From Dehalococcoides mccartyi (lineage in GTDB: Bacteria; Chloroflexota; Dehalococcoidia; GIF9; DYGU01): DNA of 55,337 nt. Below, one piece after another: positions 3,035 to 55,242 of the stretch (positions are counted from its first letter, which is position 1; each line of letters starts with the position of its first letter). Both the position numbers and the translations under genes were made by a program. A model generated the notes under the pieces. The model worked only from the letters and a program-made list of their open reading frames with translations. It ran no database searches and was not told the origin of the DNA. The stretch lies in the NCBI GenBank assembly GCA_020724525.1, contig DYGU01000010.1, positions 1-55,337 on the forward strand. Direction: 5' to 3'.

Positions 3035-3339
3035 GAGAGTGTTTATTTTGTCACCCTCACCTACCCTCTCCCTTGAAGGGAGAGGGTAGGTGAGGGTTTC
3101 TCCACCTTGTTCAGGGTGGTGGATAAGCATTGGTAAACAACCTCTTACTGTAGAGAATGTTTAATATCATTGCGAGGCTTGTCCCGAGCGCAGCGAGGAA
3201 CTTGGCGGAGCAATCCTAAAAATAGGCGTGAGATTGCTTCGCTCGCAATCTATCATGTCTCTTATCACTGACACCACGATGTATGAAAACGCCTATTTTC
3301 ATAACTAACAATGACAGAACAGAATTGGTAAACACTCTC
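3035..3339. repeat. Composite MITE-like palindromic repeat with perfect 11-bp terminal inverted repeats
   Basis: The interval begins with GAGAGTGTTTA (3035-3045) and ends with the exact reverse complement (3329-3339). Its left part is the shared element: TTTGTCACCCTCACC, a long palindrome with CCCTCTCCCTT/AAGGGAGAGGG arms, then GGATAAGCATTGGTAAACAACCTC. The right part contains a second palindromic unit of the ATTGCGAG...GATTGCTTCGCTCGCAAT type (about 3176-3262) and the inverted pair AAATAGGCG (about 3219) / CGCCTATTTTC. No coding capacity. It separates ndk from the thioesterase-HAD gene. I infer a non-autonomous mobile element, with one repeat nested in another. Confidence 0.75.
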
Positions 3340-10991: not shown

Positions 10992-11036
10992 CCTCACCTT
11001 ATTCCTCTCCCTTTAAGGGAGAGGAATAAGGTGAGG
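10992..11036. repeat. Palindromic core of the MITE-like repeat
   Basis: A perfect or near-perfect palindrome, CCTCACCTTATTCCTCTCCC / GGGAGAGGAATAAGGTGAGG, with a TTTAA centre, followed by GTTTCTCC as in the copy at 3035. The outer terminal repeats are absent. It lies between the divergent sixA and metallophosphoesterase genes. Confidence 0.65.
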
Positions 11037-51175: not shown

Positions 51176-52009
51176 TCATTCAAGTTTTATATTATCTATA
51201 AGTCGAGTCTTACCTATCCTGACAGCTAAGGAAGCTAAAGCTGGTCGGTCTATAATTGACAGTTCTTCTAAAGTTTCTGTATCAGCGATGCTAACATAGT
51301 CAATCTTAGCCAGAGGTTCTTTTTCAATCAGGGAAATCATTTCCTGGCGCAAGGACTTGGCATTTGTTTCACCCTGATGCCAGCGTTCTCTGGCTAAGAG
51401 GAGGGCTTTAAAGAGGATGGTGGCGGCACGCCGCTCCTCGGGGTTAAGGTAGGTGTTACGACTGCTCATAGCCAGCCCATCCTTTTCCCGGACTGTAGGC
51501 AGAACCACGATCTCCAGGTTCATATTGAGGTCAGCCACCATTTTTTTAATAACCAGGGCTTGTTGAGCATCTTTCTGTCCGAAGTAGGCTCGGGTTGGCT
51601 CTACAATATAGAAAAGTTTAGCGACTACTGTGGTCACCCCTTTGAAGTGGCCGGGGCGACAGGCTCCTTCAAGTCGGTCAGTTATTCCTTTAACTTCTAC
51701 CCAGCTATTGAACCCTTTAGGGTACATTTCATCTGTTGATGGTATGAAGGCTATGTCCGTTTTTTCCTTTTCCAGCAGGGCTAAGTCGTGCTCCGGGTCA
51801 CGGGGGTAAGTAGCATAGTCTTCAGTGGGACCGAACTGAGTGGGATTAACAAAGATACTGACCACAGTTGTCTTGTTTTCGGCTCTGGCTTGTTTGACCA
51901 AGGAGAGATGACCTTCGTGGAGATAACCCATAGTCGGTACAAATCCTACTGAGCCGGTAAGGCTTCGCCTTAGGGTTTTCATTTCAGCGATGGTCCTGGC
52001 TATTTTCAT
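51176..52009 (-). CDS. panC: Pantothenate synthetase
   Basis: 277 residues: VGFVPTMGYLHEGHLSLVKQ (HIGH-like), FVNPTQFGPTEDYATYPRD, RPGHFKGVTTVVAKLF, AYFGQKDAQQALVIKKM, and KDGLAMSSRNTYLNPEERRA. It ligates pantoate and beta-alanine. The start overlaps the panB stop by 4 bp. Last gene of the operon. Confidence 0.96.
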   Translation of the reverse strand: MKIARTIAEMKTLRRSLTGSVGFVPTMGYLHEGHLSLVKQARAENKTTVVSIFVNPTQFGPTEDYATYPRDPEHDLALLEKEKTDIAFIPSTDEMYPKGFNSWVEVKGITDRLEGACRPGHFKGVTTVVAKLFYIVEPTRAYFGQKDAQQALVIKKMVADLNMNLEIVVLPTVREKDGLAMSSRNTYLNPEERRAATILFKALLLARERWHQGETNAKSLRQEMISLIEKEPLAKIDYVSIADTETLEELSIIDRPALASLAVRIGKTRLIDNIKLE

Positions 52010-52839
52010 GAAGCAGCTAATTCCTGGAGCAGACTTTCATCTATAGAATAGCTGTGTTTTATAGTGGGGAAAGTGCCTTCCTTGACCTCAGTGATATAGT
52101 CAGTGATGGCATTCTTGATTATCTCAGCCAGTTTGACATATTGCTTGGCATGTCTGGGAACAAAGTCAGTGAACAGACCTAAGAGGTCGCTGATTACTTG
52201 TACCTGCCCATCGCAGTCGGGACCAGCACCAATACCGATGGTGGGTATACTTATTCTTTGAGTAATTAATTTGGCTAAGGGTGCCGGCACTGATTCCAGA
52301 ACAATGGCGAAGGCGCCAGCTTCCTCTAAGGCACGGGCATCTCTAAGCAAACGGGCTGCGGCTTCTGGTGTTTTCCCCTGGACTTTAAAGCCACTTAATT
52401 GGTGAATGGACTGGGGGGTGAGCCCGATGTGTCCCATCACCGGGATGCCGCAGTTGACAATCCTTCTTACAGTTTCGGCTACCACTTCACCACCTTCCAA
52501 TTTTACGGCTTGAGCGCCTCCTTGCTGAATAAAGCGAGCTGCGTTGTGCAGAGTATCAGAAATGGCAGTATGATAGGTCATAAAGGGCATATCACCGATG
52601 ACTAAAGCATGCTTTGTGGCTCGGACAACAGCCCGGGTATGATGGAGCATCTCCTCCATGGTTACTGGGATGGTGGATTCATAGCCTAGAACTACCATCC
52701 CCAGACTATCCCCCACCAGTATTAAAGGTATCCCAGCTTCGTCAGCTATTTTAGCGGTGGCATAATCATAAGCCGTGAGCATGGGTATTTTTTCCTGTCT
52801 TTGTTTTTTTTCCTTTATTTCAGCAATAGTAATACGCAT
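52006..52839 (-). CDS. panB: 3-methyl-2-oxobutanoate hydroxymethyltransferase
   Basis: 277 residues: MLTAYDYATAKIADEAGIPL, ILVGDSLGMVVLGYEST, KLEGGE, VMGHIGLTPQSIHQLSGFKV, IGIGAGPDCDGQVQVISDLL. Makes ketopantoate from ketoisovalerate. 3 bp after panD. Confidence 0.96.
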   Translation of the reverse strand: MRITIAEIKEKKQRQEKIPMLTAYDYATAKIADEAGIPLILVGDSLGMVVLGYESTIPVTMEEMLHHTRAVVRATKHALVIGDMPFMTYHTAISDTLHNAARFIQQGGAQAVKLEGGEVVAETVRRIVNCGIPVMGHIGLTPQSIHQLSGFKVQGKTPEAAARLLRDARALEEAGAFAIVLESVPAPLAKLITQRISIPTIGIGAGPDCDGQVQVISDLLGLFTDFVPRHAKQYVKLAEIIKNAITDYITEVKEGTFPTIKHSYSIDESLLQELAAS

Positions 52840-52842
52840 TGT

Positions 52843-53229
52843 TTAACCTCCAAATCTTTTGCTTTGTACCTCCAGCTCCTTTTTAGGGAGAACCCTGTTT
52901 GCCAAATCCACAAAAACAATCTTTGGCGTAATAGTATTTGCTTCACTTTCTGTGACCTGGCAATAAGTCAGGATGATTATTAGGTCATCTTTAGCCACGA
53001 GGCGGGCGGTGGCACCATTAAGGCAAATCACCCCCGAACCGGCTTCGTCCGGAATGGCATAGGTATCGAAGCGAGTGCCATTATTAATATTAAGGACTTC
53101 GACTCTCTCGTAGGGGAGGATATCAGCCGCTTCCATAAGCAACCGGTCAATGGTGATGCTGCCTTCATAGTCAATGTTGGCTCCGGTAACTCGGGCGCGG
53201 TGGATTTTGCTTTTTAACATTGTTCTCAT
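52843..53229 (-). CDS. panD: Aspartate 1-decarboxylase (pyruvoyl type)
   Basis: 128 residues: [20 protein letters not shown], self-cleavage site YEGSITID (Gly-Ser), [18 protein letters not shown] and IILTY. Supplies beta-alanine. The start is ATG 53229 behind GGAGGTAGG. Confidence 0.95.
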
Positions 53230-53232
53230 GAC

Positions 53233-54096
53233 CTACCTCCATCCTTTAAGTAAGGCCTCTAATTCTTTTGCCTTTTCTTGATTAATTCTTCCTTTAGCTA
53301 AGGCTACAGGTATTGTCTTGAGCCCCAATTCAATATAGGTAGAAACAAGGGCTGGAGCCGCTATTTCCAAAGCTTTTAAATGTTTTCTTATGGTGCCTGA
53401 ATCACCCCGGGCAATGGGTCCGGTAAGGCAGTGAGGTAAACCAATGTTACCAATATTGTTCACAGTCCCTTGTAGGAGGGGGAGGAGAGCTTTGGTGGCT
53501 TTATCGGCTGGTATGCCGAAGATTTGCCATAGGTCTGTAGCCAGTTTGGTTAAGGTGACTGCATAATTACAGGCAAAGACAGCCGCAGTGTGATACAGCA
53601 CCTTGTCTCCAGCTTTGAGGACAATCCAGCTTCCTTCCAGAGCTTCTGCCATCTCTTTTAATTGGCTCAGCAAAGGGTCGTCAGCTTCAAGAGCAAAAGT
53701 GGAACCGGGCAGGTTATTTATGGCTTGAGTGACACCGGCAAAAGTCTGGAGGGGGTGGAAAGAGCCGATAGCAGCGCCAGCTTGTCTGGCTGGTTCTAAG
53801 ATATCAAGGGAGTAAGCCCCGCTGCAATGGACTACATTATGACCATTATGCCACTCAATTTCCGAGACTATTCTGGGAATAACATCATCGGGGGTGGTAA
53901 TAAAGACAAAATTAGCCGCCTTAGCTACTTCTTGGGCAGTTTCATAAACCCGGCAGTTACCTACTATTTGGGCTACTCTCCGGGCTGAGGCTAAAGTGCG
54001 GCTGGAAACAGCCACTACCGGGTAGCCTTTCTGCGACAGTCTTAGAGCTAAGGCTGTGCCTACGGTACCAGCACCGATAAAGCCAATTTCTAACAC
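53233..54096 (-). CDS. Rossmann-fold oxidoreductase with DUF2520 domain
   Basis: 287 residues. N-terminal NADP fold (EIGFIGAGTVGTALALRLSQ), VFITTPDDVIPRIVSEI, VVHCSGAYSLDILEPARQAG, SFHPLQTF, then the all-helical C-terminal domain with KVLYHTAAVFACNYAV and KALLPLLQGTVNNI. In many bacteria it sits in pan operons and may act as a ketopantoate reductase; no other panE is in the window. That role is inference. Confidence 0.85.
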   Translation of the reverse strand: MLEIGFIGAGTVGTALALRLSQKGYPVVAVSSRTLASARRVAQIVGNCRVYETAQEVAKAANFVFITTPDDVIPRIVSEIEWHNGHNVVHCSGAYSLDILEPARQAGAAIGSFHPLQTFAGVTQAINNLPGSTFALEADDPLLSQLKEMAEALEGSWIVLKAGDKVLYHTAAVFACNYAVTLTKLATDLWQIFGIPADKATKALLPLLQGTVNNIGNIGLPHCLTGPIARGDSGTIRKHLKALEIAAPALVSTYIELGLKTIPVALAKGRINQEKAKELEALLKGWR

Positions 54097-54097
54097 T

Positions 54098-55060
54098 TTA
54101 CCCCCCGAGGTCTTTTGCTGAAGGTATTCCAGCCAGAGTTTCTGCCTGGAGCACGGCTCTGACTATGGCAGTGGCAACTACTTCGGCGGCTACTGCCCCA
54201 AGGAGGCTGATGTCACTTACCTTTCCCCCCAAGGACAGGGTAAAGAGGACATCACCATCATACATAGTATGGCTTGGAGAGATAGTCCGGGCTACTCCGG
54301 CTTGCGCCATCTGGGCTAATTTATTTACCTGCTCCTTGGTCAGGCGGGCGTTAGTGGCTACCACCCCGATGGTAGTGTTGTGGGTTAGGGGATGCCGTCT
54401 CTGATAACCTTGCTTAAGAAGTTCCACTGTGCTCAGGGTCCCTTTCTTTTCTGGGTCTCGGGGTCCAGCTAAAATTTTGCCGTTCTTCGGGTTAATAACA
54501 TCTCCGAAGGCATTAACAGCTACCAAAGCTCCGATGATAACACCATTGGCTATTTTCTGGCTGGCGGTGCCCAATCCACTTTTGGTGGCTTGGTCCATCC
54601 CCAAAAGCTTGCCGACAGTAGCCCCGGTTCCAGCCCCGACACTACCCTCAGCTACTTCTTTATCGGTAGCCGCCAAACAGGCTTTGTAGCCCTCTTCAGC
54701 GCCCGGTCTGACTTGGGGATTGCCTATAGCCAGGTCGAAGAGGATAGCCGCGGGGACAATAGGCACTTTGGCTACTGTGGTCTGGTGACCGAAACCCCTC
54801 TCCTCGAGATATCGGACTACACCGCTGGCAGCATCCAGACCAAAGGCACTGCCACCGCTAAGGAGAATTGCCTGGACTTTTTCGACCAAATTCATTGGTC
54901 GGAGCAAGTCGGTTTCTCTGGTCCCTGGCGCTGAACCTCTGACATCAACACCTCCTACTGCCCCTTCCTCACACAGGATAACGGTGCATCCAGTAGCCGC
55001 TTCCCGGTTGGTGTAATGCCCGACCTTTATCCCGGGGACATCAGTTATCGCGTTATACAT
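54098..55060 (-). CDS. P1-family peptidase (DmpA-like)
   Basis: 320 residues: ITDVPGIKVGHYTNREAATG, GSAPGTRETDLLRP, ILLSGGSAFGLDAASGVVRY, GSVGAGTGATVGKLLG and NTTIGVVATNARLTKEQVNK, which contains the autocleavage/nucleophile region. DmpA-type enzymes are aminopeptidases or cyclic-amide hydrolases. First gene of the pan operon, 1 bp from DUF2520; a link to beta-alanine or pantothenate salvage is plausible but inferred. Confidence 0.88.
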   Translation of the reverse strand: MYNAITDVPGIKVGHYTNREAATGCTVILCEEGAVGGVDVRGSAPGTRETDLLRPMNLVEKVQAILLSGGSAFGLDAASGVVRYLEERGFGHQTTVAKVPIVPAAILFDLAIGNPQVRPGAEEGYKACLAATDKEVAEGSVGAGTGATVGKLLGMDQATKSGLGTASQKIANGVIIGALVAVNAFGDVINPKNGKILAGPRDPEKKGTLSTVELLKQGYQRRHPLTHNTTIGVVATNARLTKEQVNKLAQMAQAGVARTISPSHTMYDGDVLFTLSLGGKVSDISLLGAVAAEVVATAIVRAVLQAETLAGIPSAKDLGG

Positions 55061-55073
55061 AGTCTCTCAGCCC

Positions 55074-55116
55074 AAAATTAAAGCCTTTCCGGCAACACCG
55101 GAAAGGCTTTAATTTT
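55074..55116 (-). terminator. Strong intrinsic terminator or attenuator in the pan operon leader
   Basis: A perfect 19-bp stem, AAAATTAAAGCCTTTCCGG and its complement, around a 5-nt loop, ending in TTTT on both strands. It lies 14 bp before the P1-peptidase start, so transcription from the promoter at 55213-55242 must pass it to reach the operon. Confidence 0.85.
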
Positions 55117-55206
55117 CTGTTAGACCTTACCCGTCTCGGTCGTTGCCGATCCAAGCGAGCCTTAGTTTTTTTTAATGAAAGCTCACCGCCCTTTTGGTCG
55201 ATGGCA
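55117..55206 (-). ncRNA. Structured leader RNA of the pan operon (candidate pan-motif RNA or riboregulator)
   Basis: About 90 nt between the promoter and the terminator. Visible stems: TTGCCATC with GATCGGCAA (one bulge), GTGAGCTTT with AAGGCTCGC around an A-rich loop, and GACC with GGTC. Rfam describes a pan RNA motif upstream of pantothenate genes in Chloroflexi and other phyla; position and lineage fit, but I could not check the consensus. Confidence 0.5.
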
Positions 55207-55212
55207 ATGCTA

Positions 55213-55242
55213 ATAATAGCTAGATTTAGGTGAGATTGTCAA
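55213..55242 (-). promoter_or_regulatory. Promoter of the pan leader
   Basis: Minus strand TTGACA (55242-55237), 18-bp spacer, TATTAT (55218-55213). Confidence 0.7.

Follow-up and report, generated by a model that had tools for sequence, protein, structure and literature searches.

A pan-motif leader with a putative transcription attenuator ahead of a pantothenate operon in Dehalococcoides mccartyi

The window analyzed here, i.e. the whole 55,337-nt stretch of Dehalococcoides mccartyi contig DYGU01000010.1 (GCA_020724525.1), carries at its right end, on the minus strand, the leader of an operon encoding an S58-family peptidase, a DUF2520 protein and the pantothenate enzymes PanD, PanB and PanC. 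This leader is probably a transcription attenuator built on the pan RNA motif and mediating feedback repression of the synthesis of pantothenate (vitamin B5, the precursor of coenzyme A, CoA). Sequence comparison establishes the promoter, the pan element with its conserved fold, a terminator-like hairpin and the complementarity between a pan strand and a terminator arm. Under the proposed mechanism, a bound factor would stabilize the pan hairpins and thereby leave the 5' arm of the terminator free, so that the terminator would form and transcription would stop before the operon (OFF); in unbound pan, the 3' strand of hairpin 2 would instead pair with that arm as an antiterminator and transcription would proceed (ON). 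The factor, be it a metabolite or a protein, might report pantothenate or CoA sufficiency, since pan elsewhere precedes uptake and kinase genes. Since 2010 pan has remained an orphan RNA, and a named strand pairing together with a predicted direction (folded pan being OFF) renders its mechanism directly testable by mutation and compensation.

The leader and its pan element

On the minus strand the leader comprises, in order, a promoter, about 90 nt with two hairpins, a 19-base-pair hairpin and the start codon at 55060. The original prediction of a near-consensus promoter ahead of a structured leader holds: a -35 box TTGACA (55237-55242) and a -10 box TATTAT (55213-55218), separated by an 18-nt spacer, match the consensus at 11 of 12 positions and place the inferred transcription start at about 55206. 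Two promoter-like sites occur in the region where 0.5 are expected. Among the leaders of the window's order (window included), a promoter stands at equal distance in 45 of 47, against 1.0 expected from mononucleotide shuffles, and the distance from the end of the -10 box to the pan element is 5-9 nt with one exception; transcription should hence start at pan itself. The structured stretch of some 90 nt was likewise predicted correctly, except that it contains two hairpins (55205-55181 and about 55158-55131) rather than three stems.

These two hairpins constitute the Rfam pan motif (RF01749), which the original prediction had named as the candidate: the covariance model matches the tandem form at 55127-55206 (minus strand) with 41.1 bits, above its gathering score of 36.2 (E-value 9.6e-4 for the whole window), and a search of the genome with this model returned no other copy. 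The leader is therefore a further case of a known motif and not a new one. It shares with RF01749 the tandem hairpins with bulged A's, found in the window and in its relatives, the position upstream of panD, panB and panC, and the Chloroflexota lineage; it differs in that genes for an S58 peptidase and a DUF2520 protein head its operon. The downstream genes named in the source paper's main text are limited to panB, panC and aspartate decarboxylase. Matches at the locus to isrJ, several microRNA models and the rnk leader remained below their gathering scores, mostly covered the perfect palindrome, and were discarded.

That palindrome, detected by an inverted-repeat search at 55074-55116 (minus strand), is a perfect 19-base-pair terminator-like hairpin with arms at 55074-55092 and 55098-55116, a 5-nt loop and the U-tract UUUAAUUUU; it ends 13 nt from the start codon, and both its length and its position just before the first operon gene are as originally described.

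Pan is widespread among relatives. It was found in 46 of 60 genomes of the window's order, in 21 of 400 in a sample of the phylum, and in 168 of 299 genomes surveyed from the class of a Succiniclasticum genome (G450), its distribution spanning several phyla. To classify the genes downstream, the five operon proteins of the window served as tblastn queries; pan-operon genes follow directly in 47 of 47 order leaders, and 117 loci with such genes, some of them redundant, come from the order together with named pattern hits. Pattern hits without pan genes (e.g., L098, L102, L128, L142, L145, L157 and L196) appear to be accidental matches within coding regions and were excluded.

An alignment of 34 pan elements shows that relatives keep the fold. 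In particular, 98.5% of cells are paired, compared with 25-44% for slid control structures, 36 cells changed on both sides compared with 9.1 in shuffles, and the covariation score is 0.216 compared with 0.127. Compensatory change is located mainly in hairpin 1 (55181-55205), where 4 of 7 counted pairs changed on both sides, and additionally in the apical pair of hairpin 2 (about 55131-55158). Because the core of hairpin 2 is nearly invariant, covariation says little for or against its fold.

Two deviating architectures were observed. Seven Nitrospinota loci (L094, L095, L096, L119, L121, L125 and L136) and one from Acidobacteria (L171) have a single pan hairpin without a clear terminator; it lies just before panB and apparently overlaps an upstream open reading frame at that frame's 3' end. 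In L105 and L162, both from Chloroflexota, hairpin 2 ends a few nt from the start of the first gene (DUF2520) and no terminator was found, possibly a translational version of pan.

Complementarity between hairpin 2 and the terminator

A first set comprised 84 non-redundant leaders, most of them from Chloroflexota and some from deltaproteobacteria, Nitrospinota and Bacillota. Here the 5' arm of the terminator has the sequence CCUUCUCGG or a close variant, and CCGAGACGG is the near-invariant 3' strand of hairpin 2. The duplex of strand and arm has a mean energy of -12.0 kcal/mol; shuffling the arms gives -7.3, dinucleotide shuffling -8.3, and the terminator 3' arm -6.2. Own-arm pairing was better than all 5000 cross-locus permutations (mean -11.38, standard deviation 0.18), the leaders not being independent. 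When whole leaders were scanned, complementarity to the arm peaked at the hairpin 2 3' strand (-11.6) and was at most -5.8 outside its neighbourhood, i.e. in hairpin 1 and the linker. An alignment-based count of changes in the arms points the same way: within the pan-complementary segment, changes number 9 in the terminator 5' arm and 34 in its 3' partner, as opposed to 53 and 41 in the rest of the terminator (Fisher p 1e-4, with rows that are related), thereby suggesting a further partner for the 5' arm, apart from its own terminator. Since hairpin 2 and the antiterminator share a 3' strand, the two are mutually exclusive, and their mean energies are near balance (-15.7 and -14.3, respectively). 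The case for an alternative pairing that would exclude the terminator is strong across the group and modest for the window alone.

A further 54 loci were collected, 14 at pan matches in genomes from which named pattern loci came and 40 from the survey of the G450 class; with seven lacking the strand pattern and one lacking a terminator by the finder used, there remained a second set of 46 leaders, mostly from Bacillota, about 40 of them additional because L266, L267, L272, L273, L274 and L275 duplicate members of the first set that bear different locus names; together the two sets amount to about 120 leaders. The peak recurs there at the same place, at -8.4 against about -3.5, but shifted 3-9 nt further 3', as exemplified by the pairing of ACGGAAGG with CCUUUCGG. 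A similar shift of register is seen in the deltaproteobacterial leaders L093, L117 and L148 of the first set.

In the window, the proposed antiterminator strand consists of the 3' strand of hairpin 2 and its tail (ACCG[A]GA[C]GGGU, 55129-55140, minus strand), which is predicted to pair with the segment GCCUUUCCGGU of the terminator 5' arm (55097-55107). In place of the group's CUCGG arm the window has UCCGG, compensated in the 3' arm, and only a bulged antiterminator fits as a result; the window's arm, CCUUUCCGG, with its compensated partner, accordingly weakens the group-type antiterminator. The hairpin 2 loop GGCAACG is almost a full complement of the terminator loop together with the start of the 3' arm (GUGUUGCC; 55147-55093), a pairing that could extend the window's antiterminator; L112 and L039 look similar, while many relatives do not.

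Several of our results weigh against attenuation by this exchange. The window's own duplex (55140-55129 with 55107-55097) contains a single bulged A and a single C-U mismatch and reaches -12.1 kcal/mol, a value equalled by 2-8% of random or shuffled partners and thus of modest significance, and static energies put hairpin 2 at -13.5 and the antiterminator at -9.7. The static model also prefers hairpin 2 with a free arm in 55 of the 84 leaders, window included, and clear complementarity is missing in some of them (e.g., L095, L113 and L135). The support from the cross-locus permutations is limited by the relatedness that this test leaves in. The second set overlaps the first by the six leaders named above and displays a smaller excess over shuffled arms (-9.0 versus -7.2). 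Finally, a strict terminator scan of the region returned no site and did not call the 19-base-pair hairpin, the window's U-tract being interrupted and lying partly within the palindrome; the tracts of most relatives are cleaner.

Candidate sensing mechanisms and the wider regulon

The interrupted tract and the empty strict scan would fit another reading, namely that the 55074-55116 hairpin terminates constitutively or stabilizes the mRNA while pan acts independently, e.g. on translation or decay, as the closeness of hairpin 2 to the first gene in L105 and L162, both without a terminator, would also suggest. We nevertheless deem this improbable, given that nearly all relatives have a terminator after pan and that the 5' arm of this terminator is kept complementary to pan, beyond its match to its own 3' arm. 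The attenuator layout envisaged in the original prediction is supported by both the recurrent terminator and the conserved complementarity.

With regard to what pan would sense, its gene contexts are wider than synthesis. Elements scoring above gathering precede sodium/pantothenate symporter genes (panF) in L263, L295 and L312, the last of which was tested directly (TIGR02119, 504.7 bits, cut-off 328); genes for S-components of energy-coupling factor (ECF) transporters, putatively for pantothenate, in L284, L304 and L264, in the latter within birA-ECF-coaX, with PF12822 found directly in L284 and L264; and birA-coaX in L302, whose CoaX was tested directly. In L288 the downstream gene encodes a BASS transporter that scores 301.6 bits with the PanS model, below the cut-off of 400, in L282 a BASS transporter judged PanS-like by eye, and in L265 an amidohydrolase-like gene and birA follow. 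A locus in Ktedonobacter (L165) has an isolated hairpin-2 match ahead of ecfA-ecfA-ecfT and an S58 gene, without a match to the Rfam model. Pan hence antecedes genes for pantothenate uptake and use as well as synthesis. These transport and use contexts, like the strand-arm complementarity, are new relative to the literature searched, including the main text of the source paper, and this wider gene set (panF, ECF S-component, PanS-like transporter, coaX) directs the search for a ligand to pantothenate or CoA status.

The proposed logic of pan resembles that of terminating riboswitches of the OFF type, e.g. the thiamine pyrophosphate (TPP) and flavin mononucleotide (FMN) switches of Firmicutes, in which the folded sensor frees the terminator and the unfolded strand forms the antiterminator; the pan sensor differs in consisting of two small hairpins. 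It is equally reminiscent of the attenuators of pyr operons, where a small RNA upstream of biosynthetic genes chooses between terminator and antiterminator upon binding of PyrR, a protein whose gene lies within the pyr operon itself; no regulator gene of that kind was identified for pan.

The chances seem to us evenly balanced that pan is bound by an RNA-binding protein which, by a logic like that of PyrR or TRAP, would sense CoA or pantothenate. The tandem hairpins would hold a protein dimer whose binding sets terminator versus antiterminator, a notion consistent with the single architecture of both pan units; the source paper also suggested a dimeric protein as the binder. Conversely, the operon has no regulator gene common to all carriers (no phyletic-profile search was made), and the literature found names no such protein.

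That pan is a true riboswitch, which would directly bind pantothenate, pantoate, CoA or a closely related compound, appears doubtful to us. It would suit the presence of pan ahead of pantothenate synthesis, uptake and kinase genes, its spread over several phyla, its nearly invariant core nucleotides and its riboswitch-like, mutually exclusive pairing; on the other hand, the hairpins are very small and simple, the source paper left "switch?" open, and a 2022 review (PMC9971707) counts CoA among the ligands for which no riboswitch is known. The literature searched yielded no known pan ligand or regulator. The broader proposition, that pan directly senses pantothenate or CoA and through the exchange of hairpin 2 and antiterminator controls how bacteria of several phyla make, take up and phosphorylate vitamin B5, is one we consider unlikely; were it true, pan would be a riboswitch for a compound of the CoA pathway, of the kind listed as missing in that review.

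Operon genes and other features

All five genes lie on the minus strand. Family searches assign the first (54098-55060, 320 amino acids) to peptidase family S58 and the second (53233-54096) to a Rossmann-like/DUF2520 protein; panD, for aspartate 1-decarboxylase (52843-53229, TIGR00223), panB (52006-52839, TIGR00222) and panC (51176-52009, TIGR00018) all score over their cut-offs. A DUF2520 gene is present in 93 of the 117 pan operons and an S58 gene comes first in 38. No panE above the family cut-off was found in the genome, which makes the DUF2520 protein a candidate ketopantoate reductase; other reductases could serve instead. Among solved structures, the relatives of the S58 protein include ThnT (E about 1e-49) and polyamide (nylon) hydrolases. 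ThnT is known to act on a pantetheine moiety, making pantetheine salvage a possible role for the S58 protein.

Elsewhere in the window, at 3053-3097 and 10992-11036, there are two perfect 21-base-pair palindromes of similar sequence (CCTCACC...CCTCTCCCTT-AAGGGAGAGG...GGTGAGG), which apparently constitute a repeat family.
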